A program made the position numbers and the translations under genes. A DNA stretch of 64,000 nucleotides from Ceratodon purpureus (lineage: Eukaryota; Streptophyta; Bryopsida; Pseudoditrichales; Ditrichaceae): assembly GCA_014871385.1 (NCBI GenBank), contig CM026421.1, forward strand, positions 10,785,644 through 10,849,643, in the 5' to 3' direction. The notes under the pieces were generated by a model. That model was given only the letters and a program-made list of their open reading frames with translations, searched no databases and was not told the DNA's origin. Positions 14,759 to 64,000 of this stretch are shown in pieces; within the stretch, counting starts at the first letter, position 1, and every line of letters begins with the position of its first letter.

Positions 14759-17700
14759 ATGGCAGCGGATCTGGGATTGAAGTCGCCGTTATTGCATAAT
14801 ACTGCTGCACAGCTAGCTTCTCCTCAGCAGGACGTCGGTGTCCCGTCCACAATGGCGTCCGAGGGTGTTGATGATCAAGTGGTGGCCAATTTGGAGAGTT
14901 CCTCAACGAAGAAGGAGGAGCGCGTTTCGCTGGCTCAGGTTGAGCTCTTGAAAGTACAAGTAGAGAATCTGAAGAAGAACTTACTTAATGTTGAGAACAA
15001 GCTCAGTGAAGAGAGTTCATTGAGGCTAAAGGCAGAGAGTGCACTGGATGAGTATAAAACGAGAGAGAAGAGCCTGTTGGTGTTAGAGCAGGAGGGCAAG
15101 GCCTTGAAAGAGGAGGTCAAGTGGAGGAATGAGCAGTTCGAGTCTCTACAAGAAGCGCACAACAGGATGAGGGATCAGTTTCACGAAGGTCAGAGTGGGT
15201 GGGCATCAGAGAAGGCAGCTATGCTTAGAAATATTGAGGCGTTGACAGAGAACGCGGCAGAGTTGGAGAAACTGCAGGCGGTTGTAAATGATGTTCGCGA
15301 ATGCAATTCCAAAGCAGAACGCAGAATTCTACTCCTGGAGGACAGGCTCCGTGATTCTCAAAAAGAGCTTGAAGCGAAGAACAACCTTGGCCATAACCTC
15401 TTGAGTTTTGAGGAGCACGAGGAAGTTGTCCTTGCAATGCGATCGGAATGTGAGGTTCTGCAACGGCAGTTGAGCACTTGTGACGCAGAAAGGTATGAGC
15501 TGGAAAAGGAGCGTGATAAGCTTCTGGCAGAGTCGAGAGAAAAGAAGCCGCATCAAAGAGGAAGAGAGGAACTGGTTGGCAATGCGGAGGTGGAAGGACG
15601 GAAGGATCGTTCTTCATTGCCACCTGGCCAGCGAGTAAATACTAGGCGGCAGCTGGAAGACTTCGCGAAACAGGTTAAGTCGTTGAACACAGAGTTGCAG
15701 AAATGGAAAGACATGGCAACGGAATCTAGTGAGGGGTCGTCGAAGTTACAGACCTTACTCGAGAGTGTGCGAAATGAGAACGAAGAACTGAGAGTGCAGC
15801 TAAATGATTGGATGCAGAAAGCATCAGAGAACAGTGACTCCATCAAGGAATTGGAAGCAGATGTTCTGAAGTGGAAGTGCAGTGCAACTAGTAATAGTGA
15901 TGAGAATCGACTGAGGATAGAAGAGCTTGAGCACTTGCGCGCAGAGGTGGAGAAATGGAAAAACGTTGCAGTGGCTCAGGAGGGAGATGGGAACTCGGCG
16001 AAAATGAAACCACTTGATAGCATTGGCATGGTTGAGGATCAAATGGAGGTGATTAGCAGGAACACCACTGGGGAATTGCTAGAGACTTCTCTGCATGTGG
16101 AGGTGGAAGAATGGAAGAAGCGAGTTGTATGTGCGGAGAAGGAGCAGGAGGATATGAGACAGTATTACGAGACGGCGGTGAAGGAGTTGCACGAGGAGTT
16201 GGAGAAGAAGTTGAAAGAGTTCCAAGTCAAGAGCAGAGATGCCGCAGATCACGTTGCTGAGGAACGTCAGAGAAGTGCGCTAGAGCTGGCGGAGCTTCAG
16301 GTAGAGCTGCAGAAATGGAGGGCAAGCGCAGCAGTTGCTGCAGAGGAGTGCTCATCTCTCCGTGTCGCACATGATAATGTCATCAAGGAGCTTCAGGTAT
16401 GCAAAGAGAACGCAGAAACCGCTACTGCGAAGGGTAAGTCCATGAGAGCGAATCTGGAAAAGGAGGTGCAGGATTTGGAAAACCAGGTACATGTGTGGAA
16501 ACAGAAGGCCGAGGAAGCACTGGAAGGTGTCGCGAAAAATCAAGAGTACCGAGATATGATAAATTTTCTGGATCAGGAGCGTGTATCCGCGGAACATCAG
16601 TTGGAAAAGGTTAGGTTGGAAATGGAAGAGAAAGCAGCCGCCGCCGCTTCGGACTCGCAGGTCTTGAAGGATGAATTCGACTCTGTAATTGCAGGAAAGA
16701 GTGCCGAGATTAATCAACTTTGCAGCGTCATCACCGGACTTAAATCAGAGCTTTCAGAGCTGAAGAGGAAGGCTGACGAGAACCACTCTTTAGAGCTTCT
16801 TCAGCTTCAAAGCTCATTGACAGAGACACAGTCACAGCTTCAAGAATGGCAAGAGAAAGCTACAGTTGCTTTTCAGGCGGAAGTCGAACTACGTCATGCT
16901 ATTGAAGAAATTAGGTTGCAGACAGAGGAACTCCATAACCTCATCAGATCTCTCAAGGATGAGCTCCTTGAATGGAAGGAGAAAGCCGAGCACCTTCAAA
17001 CGTTGCAGCTACAGCTGACATCCTCACTCGCATCATCACAGGAGGAGCTTCAATCATGGAAACAGAAAGCTATGGATGCCGCAAAGGCCTCAGATCTAGA
17101 AGTCAGAAACTCGGTCAGCCACTTGGAAGCAGAGCTTTCGCAATGGAAAGACAAGGCTCAAGAAGGTGAACTCCTTCACCAGCAGATGAGAAGCTCATTC
17201 ACAGAGACGCAAATGGAGCTCCAAGACCTGAAGGAGAAGATTGCCTCCTTCACCTTGTCCACAGAGTCTCTCAAGGATGAGCTCAGCAGTGCGACCGAAC
17301 TGGCAAGCGTGTTGTCGACCCAGCTGAGTACCCAGAAGCAGAATGCATCGTCGTTGCAGAAGCTGAATCGCCAGTTGGAGACTGAACTTGCACTAGTACG
17401 AGAAGAGGCTCTGTCCAGAAAAGAGTGGATGACTCAGATCCTTACACAGCTTGAAGGTACGGTTAGTTTGAGCCAGAGGGAGCTGCAGAATAAGTTGCAT
17501 TTTGCTCAACATCGGCTCTTTGGAAACGAGAATGTAAATTCCAGGGTTGGAGAGGAAGTTGCCGCAAAGGTGTGTCTCTGATGAATGCTCGTTCTTCAAG
17601 TTGGGAACTGGGTAATGTGCTAGAGAATTTTCAAGATTATACAGTAATTCCTGAGCGTAGCATGTACATGTAGTAAGTCTACAAGTGGGAATCAATTTGA

Positions 17701-18677
17701 GGATCTACAGCAGTGTGCAAATCATTGCTTGCAGGCATCTCCTGTTGGATCGAATAATACCCACGACGTCGTGAACCAGGGACATATTGAAGATTGTTCA
17801 ATATTTTCTGATTGGAACATGTACTTGTTATAAGTCTCGAAGTGGCATTACTGCTTGCAGGCATTTCCTGTTGGATCGGATAGTGCCCACGATGTTGTGA
17901 ACGGCAATTTATCTCCGGAGACAGCCGCTCGTTCCTTGTTGCATCATCAAGGCTCCATGAGCCAATCTCCAGATCTCAAGTCGGACATCTTCAGAGGATC
18001 ATTTATGGATCCTGCTGTCGGCAAACTGCGGCAAGAGCTCTCTTCACTGGATTCTTTCGTGAGCAAGCTTGAGCATGTCCGGAGTAGTGATGGCGATCAA
18101 TCCCAAGCACCCAGTCCTGGCGTTGAAGAGAAGATGTAAGTGGCTGAAGAAATCAAACCTCGTGCATGTATGTGGGATACAACTTACAATGCTTCGTCAC
18201 ATGTTTTTTAGTAATCTGAACTGCATCTTGGTCATTTTCTGAATTGTTTCCACTGTTTACGATCTTTTGTTGATTGCTTTGGTTTCTTACGGTAGATGCA
18301 AGGGGATCTTTGATCAGTTTCTGTTTGTCTTGTCCAAAGTGGACTCGGCTGTTCTTTACCTTGACATACGTAATCTTCAAATAGTTTTCTAACTCGGGTG
18401 CTGGACATTTCTTTGCAGGCGCGACGTCCTTTTGCAAGTGGAGAGCTCGAAAGCGACTAACGAGATTGTGCAGCCACAGAGAAACCAGTTTGATTCTCTA
18501 AACAGATCCCAGGGACAGAGTGGTGCCAGGTTCAAAGTCCTTGCAGAAGTGGATGGAAATTCGCTACGCGTACCTGTAAATTACGACAAGCTGCTTCAAC
18601 CCGAAGCTCCTTGTCTGCCTGTGGCTCCAGGCAACAACCCGTATCCTCGGTTGCGATGCACTGCAAGTGGTGTGTAG
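14759..18677 (+). CDS. Coiled-coil protein A with recurrent Trp motif
   Basis: Exons are 14759..17569, 17861..18135 and 18419..18677 (phases 0 and 2), giving 1,114 residues. I do not recognise a named family. Almost the whole of exon 1 is charged heptad sequence, predicted to form long coiled coils. About a dozen copies of a motif close to LQxWKxKA recur (for example LQKWKDMATE, LQEWQEKATVA, LQSWKQKAMDA, LSQWKDKAQEG). There are no signal or membrane segments. The N-terminal ~50 residues are less structured. The C-terminal ~180 residues are Ser/Pro-rich, with the conserved strings LRQELSS, VSKLEHVR and RFKVLAEVDGNS, and end in LRCTASGV. Gene B at 58411-64000 is a paralogue with the same gene ends. 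A scaffold or cytoskeletal role is only a guess from the coiled coil. Confidence 0.85.
17660..17908 (+). repeat. Tandem duplication of an intron-exon boundary in gene A
   Basis: The end of intron 1 plus the start of exon 2 is present twice. Copy 1 (about 17660-17783) carries cttgcaggcatctcctgttg and copy 2 (about 17818-17908) carries cttgcaggcatttcctgttg. Both continue into a version of ATCGxATAxTxCCCACGA. Copy 2 joins the open frame used by exon 2. Copy 1 has an intact acceptor but reaches a stop after about 30 codons. Gene B has a single copy that matches copy 2. Confidence 0.75.
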
Positions 18678-20912
18678 ATTAAAGCAAAATCCCCGCCTAG
18701 GGCCCCTCATCCCATTTTAGCTCTCAAACTTGGTTGGCTTTCTGCCCAGCAGCGTTCCATTCCGGGTTAGCATCCGGCCGCTCGGGCCAGATCCTGTACA
18801 TCGTCATGTATGTAGTACTAGAGTGTGCAACGAAGCCAGAGAACATGGCTGCCCGTTATCTTTGCAGATCTTCAGCTTCTTCACGTAGTCGCTCGTGGAT
18901 TTCGAACGTCGTCAACGAATCACGATTCTTTAGGTGTCAAGTTTCTTTACGAAGGTGCTGCTGCTGGAATTCAAAGAGTCATTGAAGCAGAATCAGCAGA
19001 AAGCGCAAGAATATTAGACACACAACTGCTGGTTGAAATGTCCGGCTATTTTTCTAGATTTTGTACGGACATCTATTCAAGACAGTTCATTGCTGTAAAG
19101 ATTGACATTCCTCATCAAATCTTGTGTTGTTACCTAAGTTCTCCACAATTACTGAAGTGATGTAAACATGGTTGAGCTGGCTCTTTACACTCACCGTTAC
19201 CCTATCCTCCTCATCCACATCAAATCTTTTGATGCTGTAGAACCGTACCTGGGTCGTCCAAAAATGTTTTTTAGAGATGAATCAAGTTTTCTAAGATAAC
19301 AAAAAAATTGGGAATTTCTGTCTAATGCAATTAAAGTTGTTTTTGTGGCCATAATTGATGAAAAATCTTAAGATTCATAATATATTGTGGTGAATCCGTT
19401 TGATGACTTACTTTTCAATTAGAATTCTATATAATCTTAAACGATCCTTGCTAGCGCAAAATAAAACAAATGCTTCTACTAATGGACCTTGAGAAGGGCG
19501 AGATTCAAACCATATTGGCCATTTGACATAAGAAATTTATGTAAGGTAAAGATATCTTAAAGCAACCAAACATGATAGAAAACTAATCAGTAGATGTATC
19601 TTGCAACCAACCATCACTTGACTCATGTTTGACAATTCTTCAAAATAATACTATTCACAGAGGAGCAACCCACTAATCATTAATGGCATTCAAGTATTGG
19701 AAATTCTTGAGAAAATTTTAATGATCAACTTAAAATCCTATATCATGAGTGAAAATTAGTTCTACATATATTTCAACATGAGGAAGTCTATTGACCATAA
19801 TAAGCTCCAAAATTTGTACATATTTTAATATCAAAAAATAAAAAACAACTCGAAAAATTGCATTCTTCATAAGATCTAACTTCCAATCCATGAAAAATCA
19901 TCACCCTATCAATAGCTACTCCAAAAATAGTGTAGATAGCTTAAGTTATCAGAATAAGGCATTGGAGTATAAACATATTCATACTGCGATCAATCCGGAT
20001 AGCATCTCGAAGATATACCAAAATCCAGCCTGGTAAATTTTACCGTTTGTCATGGAATCACATATTTTACCACGTAAACCAAACTGTACAACCACTGTAC
20101 ATAATGCAACTCTTCAACAACGTTCTTTACAGTTCTTCTACTGTTTACCGACCCAAACAAAATTATGAAATTACGAGGCCACTCGCGCCCAAATTCTAAT
20201 ATCAGATAGCACTAAATAAGTTGCAGATTTTAAGACAAGAGTCAAGGCCAGTTACTGTATTCTGTAATGACAGCGTTATGGAGTTCTATAACGGAGGCGG
20301 TAAGTGTGTCACGTGGTGCCCAACACGTTACACGTTGAATCTCAAGCGTTCTTATAATGTTTTCACTACAGTCCATCATTGTAAATGGTGAAGGTCGGAA
20401 GAGTTGGAATTTTTGAGTAGAAACTTTTGAGTAATTCGTAATTCGTGCCAGTGGACAACTCTTGTTTAGATGGTGAAATTCTTTCTTCTATTTTCAAAAT
20501 AGAAAAAAAGAAAACAAGAAATTAAGAAATGGTAATGATCTTGATATAAAACATCTCATGAGGCCACTGTGGCCTCTTGCAAGTGTGCACTCTTTGTTGG
20601 CACTCACCGTCCTGGACCTTCACTGTGGTTGCAGCAACCTGCAGAGGAGCGTCCTGAAACTTGAACGATATCGACCAAGACTGTCAGAGACTTGCTCATC
20701 TATCGACTCTTTCCTGTTTGAAACTGTATGTGCACGGAGATCTTTCATTTTCTAATGCATTTGGAGCTTGATTGTCTTATCAGAACTGCCGGCCTTTTTC
20801 TTTCTCCACGTTGCAGCTGATCATTTCTTTGTATTCATTTCATGAGTATGTGAATTTTTTGAATTGCAGAGCGGGGTGCCGGACGGTGAAGATCGTCCTT
20901 CGAAGCGTTGCA
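18678..20912. other. 3' UTR of gene A, intergenic DNA and phytocyanin leader
   Basis: 18678-18810 is the gene A 3' UTR and is strongly similar to the region behind gene B (see findings). 19160-20500 is AT-rich with no gene seen. A TATA-like box (tataaa, 20545-20550) and a probable leader intron ending in an acceptor at about 20870 (gaattgcag) precede the phytocyanin ATG. Confidence 0.5.
20545..20550 (+). promoter_or_regulatory. Candidate TATA box of the phytocyanin gene
   Basis: The string gatataaaac is the clearest TATA-like motif ahead of the phytocyanin, about 365 bp before the ATG. The distance fits if the leader contains an intron ending near 20870. Confidence 0.35.
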
Positions 20913-26973: not shown

Positions 26974-27537
26974 TTTATTACTTGGTATGATTTTCATATG
27001 AAAACAAGTATAAAAACTTGAAAAGATATGTAATAAGTTTATCTTAAAGGACTCTATATCACCATCTTTTTTTGGCAATTGAGTGAATTTAGCCAATTCT
27101 TCTTTTGTGTTTGATTCTAATCATTTAATTATGAGTTTTATTTAAGAATTGAATTAGAACTCTTTTTGTGTTTATAACAAGTTATATGACGTACAAATCT
27201 ATCACTAAATCCCAGTTTAATCTTGCATTGCAAGTTACTATAAGAGAGGACTTTTAATTGTTTTTGATATATTAACTATTGTAGTATTGAATGGCAAGCT
27301 TCATTGTGAACTATATAAGCATTATAGACATTGGAAATCATTGAATAAAGTCCAAGACAGATGATTTAGGGCCAAACAAAAAAGATGAACTAGATAAAAT
27401 TAGTCCATTGTTAGTGAATGATGTTGATATGGAATCCCTTGAAGTTCTTAGTGTTAAAATGTTTATAATATATAATTAAAATTGATGCAAACAAAATTTT
27501 TTAGAAGTTAGAACATTATATGTCATAAAGACATTTA

Positions 27538-27678
27538 CACTAGTAGAAATATGGTCTTTAAGGACTCGTCCGTAATGACTTAAATGGTCCAAAATGACTC
27601 AAATTGAGTGAAAATGAATCATTTTGGACCATTTAAGTCATTACGGACGCGTCCTTAAGGACCATATTTCTACTAGTG
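27538..27678. mobile_element. CACTA-type MITE (141 bp, near-perfect hairpin)
   Basis: The element begins cactagtagaaatatggtc and ends with its reverse complement. The two arms of about 65 bp differ at only a few positions and meet at about 27605. TTA flanks both ends (27535-27537 and 27679-27681), which fits a 3-bp target duplication. The CACTAGTAGAAA ends are those of plant CACTA (En/Spm) elements. There is no coding capacity. Confidence 0.85.
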
Positions 27679-28369
27679 TTATTATTGTATGATTTCATAA
27701 ACTTGTTTTATGAGAATTTTATCATATTAAAGTAAACAATCAACTTTCTAAAACATTATGTAATTTGTGATTTAAACCATATTAATGCTATAGTAATAAG
27801 TTGAAAATTTGAGTCATATGATCACTATAGTGAAGGTAGATAGACTAATGCTTTATTTAAGTTTATTGTATATAATATTCATACTAAGCTTTCATATCTT
27901 AGAATGCAACTCTTCTGAATTATTGTTATGGCAATGATCCATGTATTAATAATTTAATACTCAATATAATATGGATTTTATTTATTTCATTTCCCGATAT
28001 TTTTTTTAAAAATAAAGAACAAAAAGACTTCTGAATTATATAAAAATTTAATAATAGATTATGATTCAAATAACACCACATTACATTCTCATTTGACGAT
28101 GTTTGAAAAAAGAATATTTTACATAGATGGTACACTATAGAATGTACACTTTACAAAATATTAATTATTTCGATTCACATCAAAAATGGACATCAACTTG
28201 TGTAATTAAAGATCGTCATCAATAAGATAAAAATATAAGACAATTCAATGTAGGCCTAAACCTTACGTTAATCTAACAATATAACTCCATCCATTACTCA
28301 AATTTCAAAATTTTCTAGAATTGAATAAAAATGATTATATTTTTATACACTTGATGATAATAATAATAC

Positions 28370-28473
28370 AATCCATCTCTACGATCCATCTCTACGATCC
28401 ATCTCTACGATCCATCTCTACGATCCATCTCTACGATCCATCTCTACAATCCATCTCTACGATCCATCTCTAT
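28370..28473 (+). repeat. 13-bp minisatellite, 8 copies
   Basis: Eight head-to-tail copies of gatccatctctac. Copies 1 and 7 start with a instead of g, and copy 8 ends in t. The remaining copies are identical, so the array is young or homogenised. Confidence 0.95.
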
Positions 28474-53400: not shown

Positions 53401-55692
53401 GTATATGGCATTGTAAGAGCACTTGACACCGTTTCGTGAATTTGAGTGCGCTGATAAGTTTTAGAACTTTGAAACAGTGACCAGCTGCCGGTGAGTACGA
53501 AGTTTGACATGCGGAGTGATCCTGGAGTTGTTCGTAACTATGGGCGTCTGCTGCTGGAGATGGTCACCGCCGTACCGGATGGGATTGTGTGTTTCTTTGT
53601 TAGTTACTCCTACATGGACGGAATTGTGAACAGTTGGAATGAAATGGGTATATTGCAGGTGACCTCCACGTTCTCTTAAGTCCTCCCTGTTTTTGCACAA
53701 TTCATTATGGTCAGCAAGTGTGCTGCTTGAAATATAATGTGGATTGTAGCATCTAACCGTGTCTAGAAATTATATGGTTAGATGGTGCAATAATACGATG
53801 AATCATTGGCTCGTGCTCTTTTTCAACTCTTTCAATTTCCCATTTTGTCCAACAGGACGTGATGCAACACAAGTTGGTGTTTATTGAGACCCAAGATGTG
53901 GTAGAGACAACACTCGCTCTGGACAATTACAGACGAGCATGTGACTGTGGTCGTGGTGCTGTCTTCTTCTCTGTTGCCAGGTATTGAGTTTTATGTTTTT
54001 TCTAACCGTAGTGGCATTTGTTTCGTCCAATTCAATTCTTTGCAGTATCTTGTAACTTGTTCTCGCGGACTATTTTTCGATAGTTTGGTTGATCAAGTAA
54101 CTATTTTACGATAGACGGTTTTTTGCTTTGGCGACAATATCAGTAACTTCGTTCAGTATAGGGGTCTCATGAATTTTTTGGTCCAGTTCATTTGAAGAGA
54201 TACTGATATTTTTTTATTGCATCATTCTACCACTTTCTTGATGTGGGTGGTGATGCTGAATATGGCAGGGGCAAAGTTGCAGAGGGTATTGATTTCGACC
54301 GACACTATGGCCGCCTTGTGATTATGTATGGTGTACCATTCCAGTATACACTCAGCAGGTGCGTATAGTTTCATTTTACAGTGCTTGCTTGCGTTCGAGA
54401 TTGTGCCTCACGAAGTAGATAGTTGGACAGAGCAAACTTAAGTCACGGTTACTATGTAAGTTCCATGCATTCGTGGTGCAATAGATGTTGATCTCTTCTT
54501 CAGTCCGTGAATTGCGTATACTTGCCATTCCTTGTCACAGCAGTGTCGAGGTTTTGCTGGATGGAATTCAGAGGAGATATATGCTTAGTGTAATATGTTC
54601 ACATGTTGTCCTGGAAGTAACTGGCTTTGTTTTTGCCTTGATGAGTTGCAACACAAATTCTTACTCGGGTGCTTGTTATGGTGGACTACACAGAATATTA
54701 CGAGCACGTTTGGAGTATTTGCGGGAAACTTTTCAGATCAAAGAGAATGACTTTTTGACATTCGATGCCGTGGTATGTTTAGTGGCTGGCTAGGTCTATT
54801 GGCTTGTCACGTTATTTTAAAACCCTCCATCACCTCCAGTTCAAAACAAGGGGTAGGTTTCTGAAATTGTCTTACAGGATTGTCAGTTCGATTGTTCTTG
54901 TAATTGCTCTTCTGCTGATGCAATCCATGTGGGCATTCAAATGAGCCAGCGGCAAGCTGCACAGTGTGTGGGACGCGTTATTCGTTCGAAAGCAGACTAC
55001 GGAATGATGATTTTTGCTGACAAGAGGTATGCTGGCCATACGTGTTCTAATTTTCACCCGTTTTTAGATGGTCAGCGTTCAAAGGCTTTTTGAGTTTGTC
55101 TACAAGTTGTAAGCGAATGATTCATTGGTGCTGTTTGTGTATACGCACATGTGATTTTTTCGAGTCTGTCTAAACTTGGGCTTACTTGGTGGTCTACCTT
55201 ACTATTCTCTTACTTATCTGACATATATATCCGGTGTGAACAGGTATAATCGTCATGACAAGCGATCAAAATTACCAGGCTGGATTTTGTCGCACCTGCG
55301 AGATGCTCACCTCAATCTCAGCACAGATATGTCTGTCCATATTGCACGCGAGGTAACAGAGGTTTTTTTTGTTTCAACTCAATTTTTTTAATTTTGTATA
55401 AATTCGGGTCCGCTGCGTTCCCCCCATGAGTCCAACCTTCAGGACTCCTTACAAGGAAGACGAATTTGCTGTTCACAAAATACCTCTGCTCTATGTGGTT
55501 CTGATACTATTGTAGAGGTGAGTATTATCCTGTATCCTATTGCATTACGGTAGTTACCTTATTTCTAATGTGAGGAACGCTCTGCTTCTGCAGTTTTTGA
55601 GGCGAATGGCTCAGCCCTATGATAAAGCTGGACAAGGAACCAACGCAACACTGCTCTCACAGGCTGACCTGGAGAGAATGGAGAAAAAATGA
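50497..55692 (+). CDS. XPD: XPD/ERCC2-type 5'-3' DNA helicase of TFIIH (UVH6)
   Basis: Thirteen exons: 50497..50853, 51339..51793, 52021..52103, 52246..52433, 52665..52880, 53078..53271, 53478..53658, 53856..53980, 54269..54358, 54694..54772, 54950..55026, 55244..55352 and 55594..55692. The joined frame is 750 residues. It opens DNA in nucleotide excision repair and holds the CAK module in transcription factor TFIIH. Walker A is MPTGTGKT (residues 42-49), and the Walker B/DEAH box is [11 protein letters not shown]. The four iron-sulfur Cys are C115, C133, C154 and C189, each one less than the human numbers. Motifs V and VI are [16 protein letters not shown] and [14 protein letters not shown]. 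Length is close to human (760). The sequence closely follows plant UVH6. The C-terminus ends at LERMEKK, slightly shorter than Arabidopsis. Confidence 0.97.
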
Positions 55693-57058: not shown

Positions 57059-57781
57059 TCAAGACAAATCATTGTTCCAATAGTCATCATCAAGTCCTAT
57101 GAATCCTTCTTCCGTATTTCCAGACAAATCATTGTTCCAATAGTCATCATCAAGTCCAATGAATCCTTCTTCCGTATTTCCAGACAAATCATTGTTCCAA
57201 TGGTCATCATCAAGTCCAATGAATCCTTCTTCCGTATTTCCAGACAAATCATTGTTCCAATGGTCATCATCAAGTCCAATGAATCCTTCTTCCGTATTTC
57301 CAGACAAATCTTTGTCCCAAAAGTCATAATCAAGTCCAATGAATCCTTGCATTATAAATTGTAGGGCTAACTTTTGAGATGATTCCACATCAGCTTGACT
57401 TTTTATAGCGTCCATATTTCTAGACAAATCATCTACAACCTCCGTTGGTTGAGGTGTAGTTGTATCCATAAGCATCTTGTAAGCTAAGTTAATTTCTCGG
57501 AAATTAGTGGCGCAATTACTGCCCTTGCATACATCAGGGTGATATTCAAGTGCCAAGCGTTTATATGCTTTTTTGATGTCAGCTATGCTAGCTCCAGGAA
57601 CCACGCCCAACACAGTGTGTGGATTTCGTATTGAAGCTCGAACACGTACCATGCCATAACTAGATTTTTGTCTTGGAAATGCTCTGATACTCACAGCTCC
57701 TGCATTTTTGAATGAAGATGATTCTAGCAACTTACGTGGAGATGTACTTTGGAGAGTAGGAATGGTCATGGTGCTATTCAT
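57059..57781 (-). CDS. J-domain (DnaJ-like) protein, probably plastid, with C-terminal 20-residue repeats
   Basis: A single exon of 240 residues starts at the ATG at 57781. The first ~50 residues are rich in Ser, Thr, Arg and Ala with few acids, like a chloroplast transit peptide. The J domain follows at about 53-105 (NPHTVLGVVPGASIADIKKA, then LALEYHPDVCK with the HPD motif that stimulates Hsp70 ATPase, then FREINLAYKML). No zinc finger or substrate-binding domain is present, so it is a small type C J-protein like Arabidopsis J8/J11/J20. The C-terminal ~100 residues are five copies of a unit like GFIGLDDDYWNNDLSGNTEE, encoded by 60-bp repeats. The stop follows directly after DLS in the last unit. 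Confidence 0.88.
   Translation of the reverse strand: MNSTMTIPTLQSTSPRKLLESSSFKNAGAVSIRAFPRQKSSYGMVRVRASIRNPHTVLGVVPGASIADIKKAYKRLALEYHPDVCKGSNCATNFREINLAYKMLMDTTTPQPTEVVDDLSRNMDAIKSQADVESSQKLALQFIMQGFIGLDYDFWDKDLSGNTEEGFIGLDDDHWNNDLSGNTEEGFIGLDDDHWNNDLSGNTEEGFIGLDDDYWNNDLSGNTEEGFIGLDDDYWNNDLS
57061..57360 (-). repeat. 60-bp coding tandem repeat, five units
   Basis: Five adjacent 60-bp units start at 57061, 57121, 57181, 57241 and 57301. Units 3 and 4 (57181-57240, 57241-57300) are identical. Units 1 and 2 differ from them by one to three bases. Unit 5, the first translated, is the most diverged. Each encodes 20 residues in frame, so copy-number change would not disrupt the reading frame. 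Confidence 0.97.
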
Positions 57782-58410: not shown

Positions 58411-61400
58411 CTACACACCGCTTGCAGTGCGTCGCAACCGGGAAAACGGGGTGATGTCTGGAGTCCCAGGTGGACAAACACCTTCTTGCTGAACCTTGTC
58501 ATGGTTTGCAGATGCACGCGGTGAGTTTCCATCCACATCTGCAAGTACCTTGAACCTAGCAACGTTATGTGACCGGGATCTGTCAATAGGCTTTCGCTGT
58601 GGATGGACCAACTCATGATTCGCACTAGAGCTCGCTGCTTGTTTCTGCAAAGGAACGTCGCGCCTGCAAAACAGAGCCCAGAAATCGAAGTTAGATGACT
58701 GAAAATATATATGAAGAAAAATGATAACCATGTCCAAGATGAAATGTAAACAAACAGAGAAAATTCCAGACTGTGCAATACCTTCGGGCTCCGTTGACAT
58801 CCATGTCCAGCTCCTCGTTTTCCCTAACATGGTTAACATCACAAAAGTGAGTATCTGACGCTATTCAACGTCTCAGGAAACACGAAAGATGTACATTTTT
58901 CACAACAGGCCATGTGTCAGATAATAACAACCAACCTTTGTAAAGATACACGAGGTTGGAATTCTTCAGCTGCTCCCATCTTCTCCTCATCGCCACGAAC
59001 ACTGGATGCTTGGGATTGTTCACCATCGCTACCCCGGACATGCTCCAGCTTGCTCACTAAGAATTTCATAGAAGAAAGCTCCTGCCGCAGCTGCTCAACA
59101 GCAGGATTCGAAACAGACCCTCTGGATATGTCCGTCTTGTAATCTGGAGACTCGCTCCTGGATTTCTGATGATGCGACATGAAAAGAGGGGGAGTCTCCG
59201 GAGATGAAATGTTATCCGAATCAACAGAGAATGCCTGCAAGAAATGATGCCACTTGGAGACTTAGTACATTCGGAAAAAAATGCGCAATCTTCAAAGTGA
59301 CACTGCTGCACGACCAGGCTCCCAATTTGACTTGGAAAAGAGTATTCATGACATACGCACCAGGTTGGCACTCTCAGCCTGGCTGGGATGACCGTCGTTT
59401 CCAAGGAGGCGGTGTTGAGCCAAATGCAGCTTATTCTGCAGCTCCTTCTGGCTGTTACTGGTACCTTCAAGCTGGGTCAGTATCTGGGTCATCTTGTGCT
59501 TTCTAGACAAAGCCTCTTCTCGTACTAGTACAAGTTCAGCCTCCAACTGGCGATTCAACGTCTGCAATGTCACTTCATTCTGCTTCTGGGTACTTAGCTG
59601 GATGGTCAACATGTTCACCTGTTCGTTCGCTTTGCGGAGCTCATCCTTGAGAGAATGTGTTGTCGAAATGAAGGCGGAAATCTTCTCTTTCATGTCTTGG
59701 AGCTCCGTTTGCGTCTCCGTAAGCGAGTTTCTCATCTGCTGGTGAAGAAGTTCACCTTCTTGGGCCTTCTCTTTCCATTGTGAAAGCTCAGTTTCCAAGT
59801 TGCTGATGGAGTTTCCGAGGTCTGAGTCTGTCACCAACGTTGCGTCCATAGCTTTCTGTTTCCATGATTGAAGCTCCTCCTGTGATGATGCGAGTGAGGA
59901 GGTAAGCCCTAGTTGTAATGTTTCAAGGTCGTCGGCCTTCTTCTTCCACTCAAGGAGCTCATCTTTCAGGGCTCTGCTGAAGTCGTGGAGTTTCTGTGAT
60001 TGGGACCTAATTTCATCAACAGCCTGACGTAGCTCCTCTTCGGCTTGAGAAGCAACGGTAGCTCTCTCTTGCCATTCCTTGAGTTGTGACTGTGTCTCTG
60101 TCAACGAGCTTTGCAGCTGAAGAAGCTGCGGAGAGTTGTCATCGTTAACCTTCCCTTTAAGATCTGAAAGCTCTGCTTCGACTCCGGTGATGGCGGTGCA
60201 GAGTTGTTGTATCTCGGAACTGCTTTCTGTGATCGTAGAGTCGAGCTCGTCCTTCAAAGCTTGCGTTTCCGAAGCAGCGGCAGCTGCTCTCTCTTCCATC
60301 TCGGACATAGCTCTTTCCAGCTCAAGTTGCACGGAAACGCCCTCCTGAGCCCTAGATTTCCATTCGAAGAGCTCTGCTTCCAGTTCATTGATTGTGTTGC
60401 AGAGCTTCTCTTTTTGCAGTCTGTTGTCGCTGAGGATAGAATCGATCTCTTCCTTCAATGATTTCGTTGCAATAGCAACGGCTGCAGCTCTGTCTTTCCA
60501 GGCTTGAAGCTCGGTCTCCGTTTCCAGGAGAGTGCGTTTGAGTTCCGATTGCGTGGACTCACTCTCTGCCACCTTCTCCTTCCAGACAAGGACGGATGCT
60601 TTCAAAGTGCTGATTGAGTTGTAAAATTCCTGCTTCTCCAGTTGTCCTTCTTCAACCGTCAAGTCGAATTCTTCCATCAAAGATCTTGTGGATTGAGTGA
60701 TAGCAGCGGCTTTCTCTTCCCATGTCTGTAGCTGGGATTGTGAAGTCTTCAACTGGGATTGCAGAGACTGGCACTCCTGAGCTCTAACGCATAGCTCCGC
60801 TTCCAACTGGCTATTCGACCGAGATAGTTCCTCTGTTTCAAGCCGACCTTCGTCGATGATGCAGACCAGTTCCTCTTTGAGAGCTTCTGCTATCAGACTA
60901 AACTCGGCGGCTTTATGTTTCCATTCCTGAAGTTCAGTCTCCGTTTCGGCAAGCAAATTTTTCAGCTGCTCCTGCAGGAGCTCCCCATCATTAGCTTTTG
61001 ATTTCCACTTCTGGAGTTGTGATTCAAGTTCAGTGTCAATATCATCATCTTCTTGAAGGGATCGAATAGACGTCGTCACAACTGCAGCTTTGTCTTTCCA
61101 TTTCTGAAGCTCATTTTGGGTCGCTGTGAGTGATTCCTTCAAATGGGCTCGGTCTTTCTCTAGTTGCAGTTGCAAAGCTTTCCCTTCTTCAGTTCGCTGT
61201 GTCCAAAGACACAGCTCCTCCTCCAAAGCTTTGATTAGATCTTCGTACTCTTGACTTTTCACAACGCCTTCCAGTGCTTTCTCGGCCTTTTGCTTCCACA
61301 TGCGAACCTGATGTTCCAAATCCTGTACCACGTTCTCTAGATTCGCCTTCACGACCTTAGCCTCTTCAGCAGCAGCATCTGATTTTTCTTTCCACTGGGC

Positions 61401-64000
61401 AAGCTCCAACTGAAGCTCCTTGATGATATTCTCGTATGTGTCACGAAGAGTTGTGCACTCCTCTGCAGAATCTGCTGCCCTTGCTTTCCAATTCTCTAGC
61501 TCTGCTTTAAGCTCCAACATCTCTGAGGTATCTCTGTCCTTGACTAGAAAACCTTTCAATCTCTTCTCCAACTCAACTCTCTCAAGTCTTCCATCTTCAG
61601 CAATGCACGCTGCGCTCTTCTTCCACGCTTCCACCTCCAAGTGCAACTCCTTCACCGTCGTCTCGTATCGTTCTCTCATGTCTTCTTGCTCCTTTTCTGC
61701 ACATACAACTCTCCTCTTCCAATCTTCCACTTCAGCTTGCAGAGATATCTCCAGCTCAGAAGCCACAGGCCTCCACTCATTTGAAAAACGTCCTGAGGGG
61801 CTTCTCTGCCAGGTACTACAATCCAGCTCCTCTTCTCGTAACGACCTCCCTCCTGCTGAACTGCATTCTCCAATGGAATTGCTACTCATCACCTCCAATT
61901 CATCCTCAAACTTGCCCAAAGTATCAAGTAAATCCATTCTGGCTGACTTCTCCTCTTCCTCTGCTGTTACTGCGGCAGTTTTCCACTTCTCAACTTCCGC
62001 ACGCAGGTGCTCAAGCTCTTCTACCCGGAGTCGATTCTCGTCGTTATGAGTTTCTGCTCTACGCTTCCAATTCTCCACATCCGCCTCCAAGTCTTTGGTT
62101 CTGCAATTGAGCTCTAAAGCTTTCTGCATCCACTCGTTCAGCTCTGTTCTCACTTCTTCATTCTCCTTTTGCACGCTCTCGAGACAGATTTGCAACTTCG
62201 TTGATCCTTCATTCGCTTCCGTCGCCACATCTTTCCATTTCTGCACATCTGCACTCAAAGACTTCACCTGTTTTGCGTAGTCATCAAGCTGCCGCCTCGC
62301 AACGATTCTCTGGCCAGCTGACATAGCTGAGCGGTCTTTCCATCCTTCCACCTCTGCTTTCAGTTTGCTGATAGTCTTCTCCAGGTCTTCCTTCAAGGTT
62401 GCAGTTTCCTGAGCTGCGGACGCTGCCTTGCTCTTCCATTCTGCAAGGTCCGCCTTGACTTCGACAGCCTCTTCTTGCAACGCCCTCACGAGGTCTTCTA
62501 ATCCAGTATCCTCGTGTCGATGAACAAAGGATTCATGCTTCGACATTTTCGGAGCCTGTTTCCGACTCTCTAACTCGAACTGAATATGCTTGAATGAAGC
62601 TCTGAACTGCCGTGTTAGCTTCCGACCCTCTTTCGCCACCGTGGATGACTTGCTTTTCCACCCGTGTAACTGTTGTGCAGCATCGTCATTGTCCGCAGCT
62701 TCTAGACCCGATGAGCAGCCTTCATCCTCCTGATGGAAAGGATTTATCGAATTTGGAGTGAAAACATCAGGTTCGGCCCCGTCTACTCCTACCACTCTTG
62801 CAACTTCTTTTGGAGCAGACTCTACCTTTGTAGATTGCCTCTCCTCACGAGCCAGTGTTTCGAACTGTTTCCAAGTCTTAAGTTCACCCTGTAGGCTCTT
62901 GAGTAACTCCTCAAATTGAACTTTCATATGTAATCCCTCATCGGTAGCCGCTGCTGCTTTCTCCTTCCAAACTTCCACTTCCGCTTGAAGAGCAGTCACA
63001 CAGTCCTCAATCTCAAGCTTTACACGCCTAGCCTCCTTGGCTTCCAACGCTGCAACCTCCTTCAACTCCAGCATCTCGGATTTCGCTTCTTCTACTTCCT
63101 TCCGTAAGTTTTGGAACAACAGTTGAATGTCCAACTTCATGTTCCTTCCTATATCATCTATTGATGATACACCTGATTTGCACTCCAGCAACGAATGCTC
63201 GAAATCCAAGAACGCTTGTTCCAGGATGGCGATAAATGACTCACACTCTTCAGCTCTTTGTCTCCATTCCTTGAGCTGCGATTGTGCTTCCTGTAATGAG
63301 AACTCGGTTGCGGACGAATGCATAGCCTTGGCTTCCCAGGCGCTCAGATCCCTCCGAAGATCTGAAATGACAGCATGCAAGTGCTGTTCTCTTTCCTCCG
63401 TGCCTGTAATAGCATCCAGCGCTTTCTGCTCCTTCAAGGCTTCCACTTGGAGTTGCGAATCCCTGGCAAAGGTCAGAAACTCAGATTTCAAAGCATTCCC
63501 CTCTCTGCATGCCATTGACATCAAATCTTTCGAGTTTGCAAGATCTTCCTGCACACATTGAAATTCTTCATGGACCTGTTTCAGTAAGAAATCCAGATGC
63601 CGTTTCGTTACATCTCCTTCGTCTGCTAAAGAGGTAACAACCTTTTCCCAGCCTGTCACTGACTCTTGAACAGCCTGCATAGACTTTTCAAGCTCTGCAT
63701 TCAGAAACTGGGTATTCTCTGCAATCTCTTTCCACTCCTCCATCTCCACCTTCGACTTTTTGAGTGAGCTTTTAAACTCGGCAGTCATGGTGGCATTGGT
63801 CTCCGTAAGAGAAGCCACTCTCGCCTTCCATGCATCAAGCTCCATCTGGCTTAGATTCTCTGTGTGCTCAGCTATTTCCTTCCATTCCTTCACCTCCGCC
63901 TGCAACCTGCTGATTGAGCTTTCAAACTTGGCGTTGCTCTCTGTGAAAGCAGCAGCCTTAGCTTTCCAAGCATCAAGCTCCGTTTCAATCTCGTTTCTAG
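58411..64000 (-). CDS. Coiled-coil protein B with recurrent Trp motif (5' part outside window)
   Basis: Minus-strand exons are >64000..59361, 59234..58936, 58823..58782 and 58663..58411. At least 1,743 residues are in the window and the frame is open at the right edge. It is a paralogue of gene A: shared blocks include RIVARRQLDDYAKQVKSL (A: RQLEDFAKQVKSL), LRVEELEHLRAEVEKWK, MTQILTQLEGT, LRQELSS, VSKLEHVR, RFKVLADVDGNS, and the last residues RTASGV. More than 30 copies of LxxWKxKA occur (such as LSAWEAKAMHS, LQKWKDKAAVV, LLEWKKKADDL, LQSWKQKAMDA), far more than in A. No membrane or signal segment is seen. One NPF (SINPFHQED) lies in a less charged stretch. A 42-bp exon (58782-58823) has no counterpart found in A. 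Function unknown. Confidence 0.87.

Follow-up and report, generated by a model that had tools for sequence, protein, structure and literature searches.

Two long coiled-coil proteins with a recurrent tryptophan unit in the moss Ceratodon purpureus

Two coiled-coil genes and their copies

The window analysed here is a stretch of 64,000 nucleotides from the moss Ceratodon purpureus (C1:10785644-10849643 of an assembly of 362.5 Mb in 151 contigs), in which two genes, A and B, are predicted to encode long coiled-coil rods whose last half carries an amplified short unit of the form L/V-x-x-W-K-x-K/R-A. Gene A consists of three exons on the plus strand (14759-18677) and encodes 1,114 amino acids in the splice model. 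Gene B lies on the minus strand and yields, when the exons of its splice model are joined, 3,272 amino acids with one stop only, at the end; the final four exons of the model terminate at 58411, and exon 4 extends beyond the window to 65648 (window coordinates). The exon boundaries of both genes are predicted splice sites. An earlier, sequence-only reading had proposed a pair of coiled-coil genes and placed it at 58411 to 64000. The pair is real, and 58411 is the exact end of the last modelled exon of gene B, but gene B continues past 64000 and gene A lies elsewhere in the window. The exons within the window are as follows:

14759 to 17569, plus strand: gene A exon 1, residues 1-937, head block and tryptophan-unit rod (open frame, splice model, tryptophan positions)
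17861 to 18135, plus strand: gene A exon 2, short conserved helix plus a tail rich in Ser and Pro (splice model; 60% match to the downstream frame of gene B)
18419 to 18677, plus strand: gene A exon 3, tail with C-terminal RLRCTASGV (splice model; matches the end of gene B)
59361 to 64000, minus strand: gene B exon 4, in-window part, tryptophan-unit rod with 33 [LVIFM]xxW units (open frame, genome continuation, splice model, units)
58936 to 59234, minus strand: gene B exon 5, tail with the short conserved helix (splice model; match to gene A exon 2)
58782 to 58823, minus strand: gene B exon 6, 42 nucleotides, predicted; needed in the splice model to preserve the frame
58411 to 58663, minus strand: gene B exon 7, tail with C-terminal RLRRTASGV (splice model; match to gene A exon 3)

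Exon 6 is the least certain of the modelled exons of gene B, and no counterpart is seen in gene A. For gene A, the opening of exon 2 is found twice in near-identical form, at about 17736 and 17861, each time following a possible splice acceptor, and the second is used in the model.

The 5′ exons of gene B are located outside the window, some of them on another scaffold, and the assembly appears to cut the gene between scaffolds C1 and C10. On C1, exon 3 starts directly at the border of a 10,000-N gap (C1:10853127), while C10 halts at a 10,000-N gap (C10:11506505) reading ...KWRNEQFE and C1 resumes with SLEEAHNRM..., such that the codons abut exactly. Across the point that matches this junction, gene A reads KWRNEQFESLQEAHNRM unbroken. 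Further exons on C10 supply the start of gene B, MAAS..., which resembles the start of gene A, MAAD.... One and the same open frame is found on the far sides of both gaps. Gene A, the shorter paralog, lacks stretches of the head and of the Trp-poor rod that are present in gene B. A single NPF tripeptide, a sequence that elsewhere serves as an EH-domain ligand, occurs within a Pro-containing linker of gene B (residues 1948-1950; 62744-62736) and is absent from gene A.

Searching the genome with gene A exon 1 returns 18 matches, which comprise A, B, the C10 part of B, a copy on C5 (copy C), a fragment on C1 and a weak match on C3 (31 residues, E 7e-4), and searching with the C1 part of gene B exon 3 returns four, namely B, A (two matches) and the C1 fragment. 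Copy C is a 966-codon open frame (C5:633948-636845), of which 937 amino acids were used in the analyses; it has no head or tail within the 30 kb examined, ends out of frame relative to gene B and could represent a pseudogene or a gene that has been truncated. In it, two Trp units are duplicated in tandem over 64 residues, with 80% identity in protein and 79% in DNA. The C1 fragment (C1:4251504-4251906) is broken, with stops, and shares 90.6% DNA identity with the head of gene A. Further array-only copies beyond A, B and C could exist. We note that, being paralogs, the three copies do not provide independent tests of motif and spacing.

The tryptophan unit and its heptad register

The pattern [LVIFM]xxW, of which the hydrophobic residue at -3 is part, identifies 33 units in gene B after residue 1500, all inside the window (34 with an isolated one at residue 839), 11 in gene A exon 1 (residues 316 to 796) and 22 in copy C. 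Tryptophan is correspondingly concentrated at residues 1501-3010 of gene B, with 36 Trp versus 5 at residues 1-1500. The recurrence of an LxxWKxKA unit noted in the sequence-only reading is real in both genes, but LxxWKxKA itself is a consensus, which is found literally 8 times in B, 3 times in A and 7 times in C. Over the 34 B units (the one at residue 839 included), Lys is present at +1 in 27, Lys or Arg at +3 in 26, Ala at +4 in 25 and Glu at -4 in 22. Hydrophobic columns recur at -14, -10, -7, -3, 0, +14 and +18. Compared with 42 other d positions of the same region, the BLOSUM gain across the 33 B units is 3.5 at -4, 2.9 at +1 and 2.0 at +4, with 1.5 at each of -6 and -7 and hardly any (0.2) at +3.

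Neighbouring Trp residues had been described as mostly 28 residues apart, which does not hold: among the 32 motif spacings of gene B, 28 and 32 tie at six each, with 35 seen three times, 31 and 46 twice each, 29 once and 12 others scattered. A strict 28-residue periodicity is ruled out by this equal frequency of 28 and 32. Nevertheless, the spacings are periodic beyond chance, since 23 of 32 in gene B are 0 or 4 modulo 7 (binomial p 5e-7), as are 17 of 21 in copy C (p 1e-6) and 6 of 10 in gene A (p 0.04), indicating steps of full heptads, to which a four-residue stutter may be added. A spacing of exactly 28 is observed 6 times versus 0.45 expected under random placement (35 spacings between all 36 Trp).

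The heptad register was assigned using a seven-state model trained on gene B residues 61-1500 and run with either the Trp or the whole motif hidden. With the Trp hidden, it is assigned to heptad position d in 31 of 33 units of gene B, 19 of 22 of copy C and all 11 of gene A, and with the whole motif hidden in 25/33, 19/22 and 9/11 units, respectively. The Trp therefore does occupy a specific heptad site, as the sequence-only reading had anticipated, namely the core d position. In this register, the Leu or Val of the unit would reside at the preceding a and the Ala at the following a, whereas the Glu at g and the Lys at the next e would be placed as a cross-strand pair of two parallel, in-register chains, with successive units linked by heptads plus frequent four-residue stutters. 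A partner site, one of the two options that the earlier reading had drawn from a regular Trp ladder, is not required: the predicted place of the Trp is a buried one, at d and next to E-K pairs between chains, and this points to self-pairing more than to the binding of a ligand.

Charge pairs were counted in a register blind to charge, with g-to-e′ pairs taken as i+5. Within the Trp region of gene B, 52 of 192 g-to-e′ pairs are attractive and 3 repulsive (shuffled net 5.8 ± 7.0), and when the motif pairs are left out there are 31 attractive and 2 repulsive among 160. No such excess is seen in the e-to-c control (26 to 22). The same trend is observed in the other half of gene B (36 to 16), in gene A (25 to 5) and in copy C (30 to 5). 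This g-to-e′ pattern fits that of parallel, in-register strands. In addition, AlphaFold2 predicts nine helices of 10-151 residues for gene A, and four helices of 44-88 residues for a 279-residue piece of gene B. If straight and helical, the rods would measure about 444 nm for B and about 128 nm for A.

Selection between the paralogs was gauged by crude Nei-Gojobori dN/dS estimates on columns that passed a local-identity filter. Between A and B, dN/dS is 0.30 in the Trp region (538 codons), 0.15 in the head (104 codons) and 0.49 in the tail (132 codons); the values for C-B (0.24, 615 codons) and C-A (0.20, 232 codons) need not mirror present constraint on copy C. Aligned Trp residues are kept in 11 of 12 cases from A to B and in 16 of 16 from C to B.

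Family placement and surroundings

No Pfam model reaches its cut-off in gene A exon 1, gene B exons 1 to 5 and 7 or copy C, and no NCBIfam model does so in gene A exon 1 and gene B exons 3 and 4, the pieces compared with that library. Sequence searches of the PDB gave chance-level matches only (GFAP, E 0.03; kinesin, E 0.07). Golgins and FPP are two of the families in which a placement would have refuted the sequence-only reading. FPP (PF05911) matches gene B exon 1 below threshold, at 22.7 bits versus a curated cut-off of 40 (E 3.5e-5), and is absent from gene A exon 1 and the window part of gene B (E up to 1), from the C1 part of gene B exon 3, gene B exon 4 and copy C (E up to 0.1), and from six other pieces scanned. 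For golgins, neither a GRIP domain (Pfam scans) nor a C-terminal membrane anchor was found, and TMF_TATA_bd on gene B exon 1 remains sub-threshold (15.2 bits versus 29.1). Indeed, no membrane-like segment is seen in A or B, the best 19-residue hydropathy being 0.95 (A, residue 643) and 1.21 (B, residue 2559), neither of them C-terminal. The NAB/KIP1 domain of KIP1/NET proteins has no match in Pfam scans of gene A exon 1 and gene B exons 1 to 5 and 7.

Several further candidates were rejected. Kinship with SMC or Rad50 proteins was taken as generic coiled-coil similarity (NCBIfam 20.5-81.4 bits versus cut-offs of 270-1087 in gene A exon 1 and gene B exons 3 and 4), and Pfam matches to CCDC113_CCDC96_CC, DUF1664, ACBP4_C and TPR_MLP1_2 fall below cut-off. 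A pattern matched 16 prokaryotic stretches, none of them a relative. The W-acidic kinesin-cargo motif does not fit the unit, in which +1 is Lys in 27 of 34 cases.

A more specific resemblance is to Arabidopsis At4g38062, for which an unverified sequence was used. Residues 376-628 of gene B align with its residues 162-415 at 27% identity (81.3 bits, E 7e-19) and the head of gene A scores 47.0 bits (E 6e-9), whereas 100 heptad-shuffled copies reach at most 32.3 bits for B and 27.3 bits for A. A K-W-x-x-E-Q-F block is common to At4g38062 and the A/B head, and in a full-length BLASTP comparison only the head aligns at E up to 0.01. By contrast, gene B is about three times longer, and the Trp array has no match in the unverified sequence; a V-W-K segment considered as ancestor of the unit finds no support, as its score of 38 against the corresponding stretch of gene B lies under the shuffled null (mean best 61). 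In one paper, the protein appears under the annotation name 'Uncharacterized protein At4g38062'. The designation of an unrecognised family is thus only partly right. None of the models scanned attains its threshold, whereas the heads of both proteins align with a named, if uncharacterised, protein, and the term lineage-specific is likewise too strong. A and B look like an elongated branch, equipped with a Trp array, of a plant coiled-coil family that has been little studied, not like an unrelated new family; compared with At4g38062, the array alone has the look of an addition.

Among known systems, nebulin and tropomyosin resemble A and B in being rods along which a short motif returns every 30 to 40 residues, although motif and spacing differ. 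FPP proteins are, like A and B, long coiled coils and are listed as plant-specific in a 22-proteome survey (PMC1322226), but A and B fall below the FPP model cut-off. There, KIP1-like proteins, FPP and NMCP1 relatives are among the plant-specific clusters, which consist mostly of sequences of unknown function (PMC1322226). Compared by description, PICC and PICL are likewise two paralogs, one of which has an expanded rod, but, according to PMC3581476, they carry a transmembrane end and are reported from vascular plants only, whereas hydropathy detects no C-terminal transmembrane segment of this type in A or B.

Elsewhere in the window, a DnaJ-like open frame (57059-57781, minus strand) ends with a 60-bp in-frame tandem repeat of about five copies that are 96% alike. 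A near-perfect palindrome is present at 27537-27679 (65-bp arms, 95%, 13-bp loop) and a 13-bp tandem repeat at 28367-28472 (8.2 copies, 96% alike). A 54-nucleotide inverted match between 20001-20054 and 55254-55307 (81%), outside genes A and B, is perhaps the remnant of a larger inverted duplication.

Interpretation of the tryptophan array

We lean towards a reading in which A and B each form a parallel, homotypic rod or tether of great length whose register is locked by layers of Trp, a cellular role that we infer. Each unit would act as a clamp, in which a Trp-Trp′ d layer is closed by two E-K′ bridges and the Ala layer makes room. An irregular series of such clamps would allow full pairing of identical chains in one register only, and the resulting stiff homodimer could serve as a tether, spacer or scaffold between partners held by head and tail. 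Consistently, only in-register pairing aligns all 33 Trp of gene B, the best shifted pairing aligning 6, and ungapped A-B pairing aligns at most 5 of the 11 Trp of gene A.

A number of observations weigh against this reading. Permuted spacings also give 6, such that the register lock is a consequence of any irregular spacing and no sign of design. The b-to-g control also displays some excess (28 to 14, p 0.0025), albeit smaller than that of g-to-e′, and E-K pairing inside the motif alone is no better than column make-up (21 attractive and 1 repulsive of 32, p 0.08). Trp at d is unusual in dimers, and it is possible that the rod is a trimer or tetramer instead. The AlphaFold2 models are of single chains only and of low confidence (pLDDT 61 for A and 70 for the B piece), and all three helix breaks in the B piece fall between units. 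From C to A, only 4 of 6 Trp are kept. Moreover, the splice models are predictions and gene B is joined across two scaffolds, the head match to At4g38062 uses an unverified sequence, and the FPP match on gene B exon 1 is the strongest plant-family lead against the filing chosen here.

The array could instead be part of an ordinary coiled coil, in which Trp units spread by internal duplication without a special role and were retained through purifying selection on the rod. Such a history accords with the 64-residue, 80% identical duplication in copy C and with gene A lacking units that are present in B, as units come and go; we nevertheless regard it as unlikely, because only columns -4, +1, +4 and the Trp stay alike while others drift, and because aligned Trp are kept in 11/12 and 16/16 cases, though Trp is generally conserved. 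By analogy with the modules of nebulin that bind actin, the units might also be docking sites, at each of which the coil would open or take up a partner that recurs along the rod. With 28 to 35 residues corresponding to 4.2 to 5.2 nm, a range that resembles cytoskeletal subunit spacings in length, and with basic residues flanking the Trp (Lys at +1, Lys/Arg at +3), docking has some appeal, but the Trp is predicted at core d and not at the surface, and the irregular spacing does not fit a fixed lattice, leaving this distinctly unlikely.

An array of short folded-back helices, one per unit, would replace the extended coiled coil altogether. Gly, Pro, Asp or Asn is found at +11 in 24% of units versus a background of 12%, and the helix breaks of the B model mentioned above would suit such an arrangement. 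However, there is no conserved turn column, hydrophobic columns recur in heptad phase at +14 and +18, the predicted helices of gene A exceed one unit and only 10 Pro are present in gene B residues 36-3066. A strict one helix per unit is rejected given the hydrophobic columns and the helix lengths in A, despite the position of the breaks in B, and we consider an array of this kind very improbable.

The clamped homotypic rod can be extended to a bolder proposal, to which we give only a slim chance, whereby A and B would be moss-specific, register-locked filament proteins. Trp-Ala clamps and E-K bridges would together provide an address on a rod some 0.4 micrometres long, B pairing with B and A with A, and clamp number would be adjusted as entire units are gained or lost. 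If true, register-locked rods could assemble in plants into filaments comparable to intermediate filaments. PMC10856949 presents C. purpureus as a model moss, so that tagging and knock-out look practical. Should the clamps set partner and register, the pair would represent a natural example of Trp employed repeatedly in the core of a long coiled coil with parallel strands, as well as a handle on an uncharacterised plant family. Even if the clamp reading is false, the pair would remain a clear example of a coiled coil whose length rises and falls one unit at a time.

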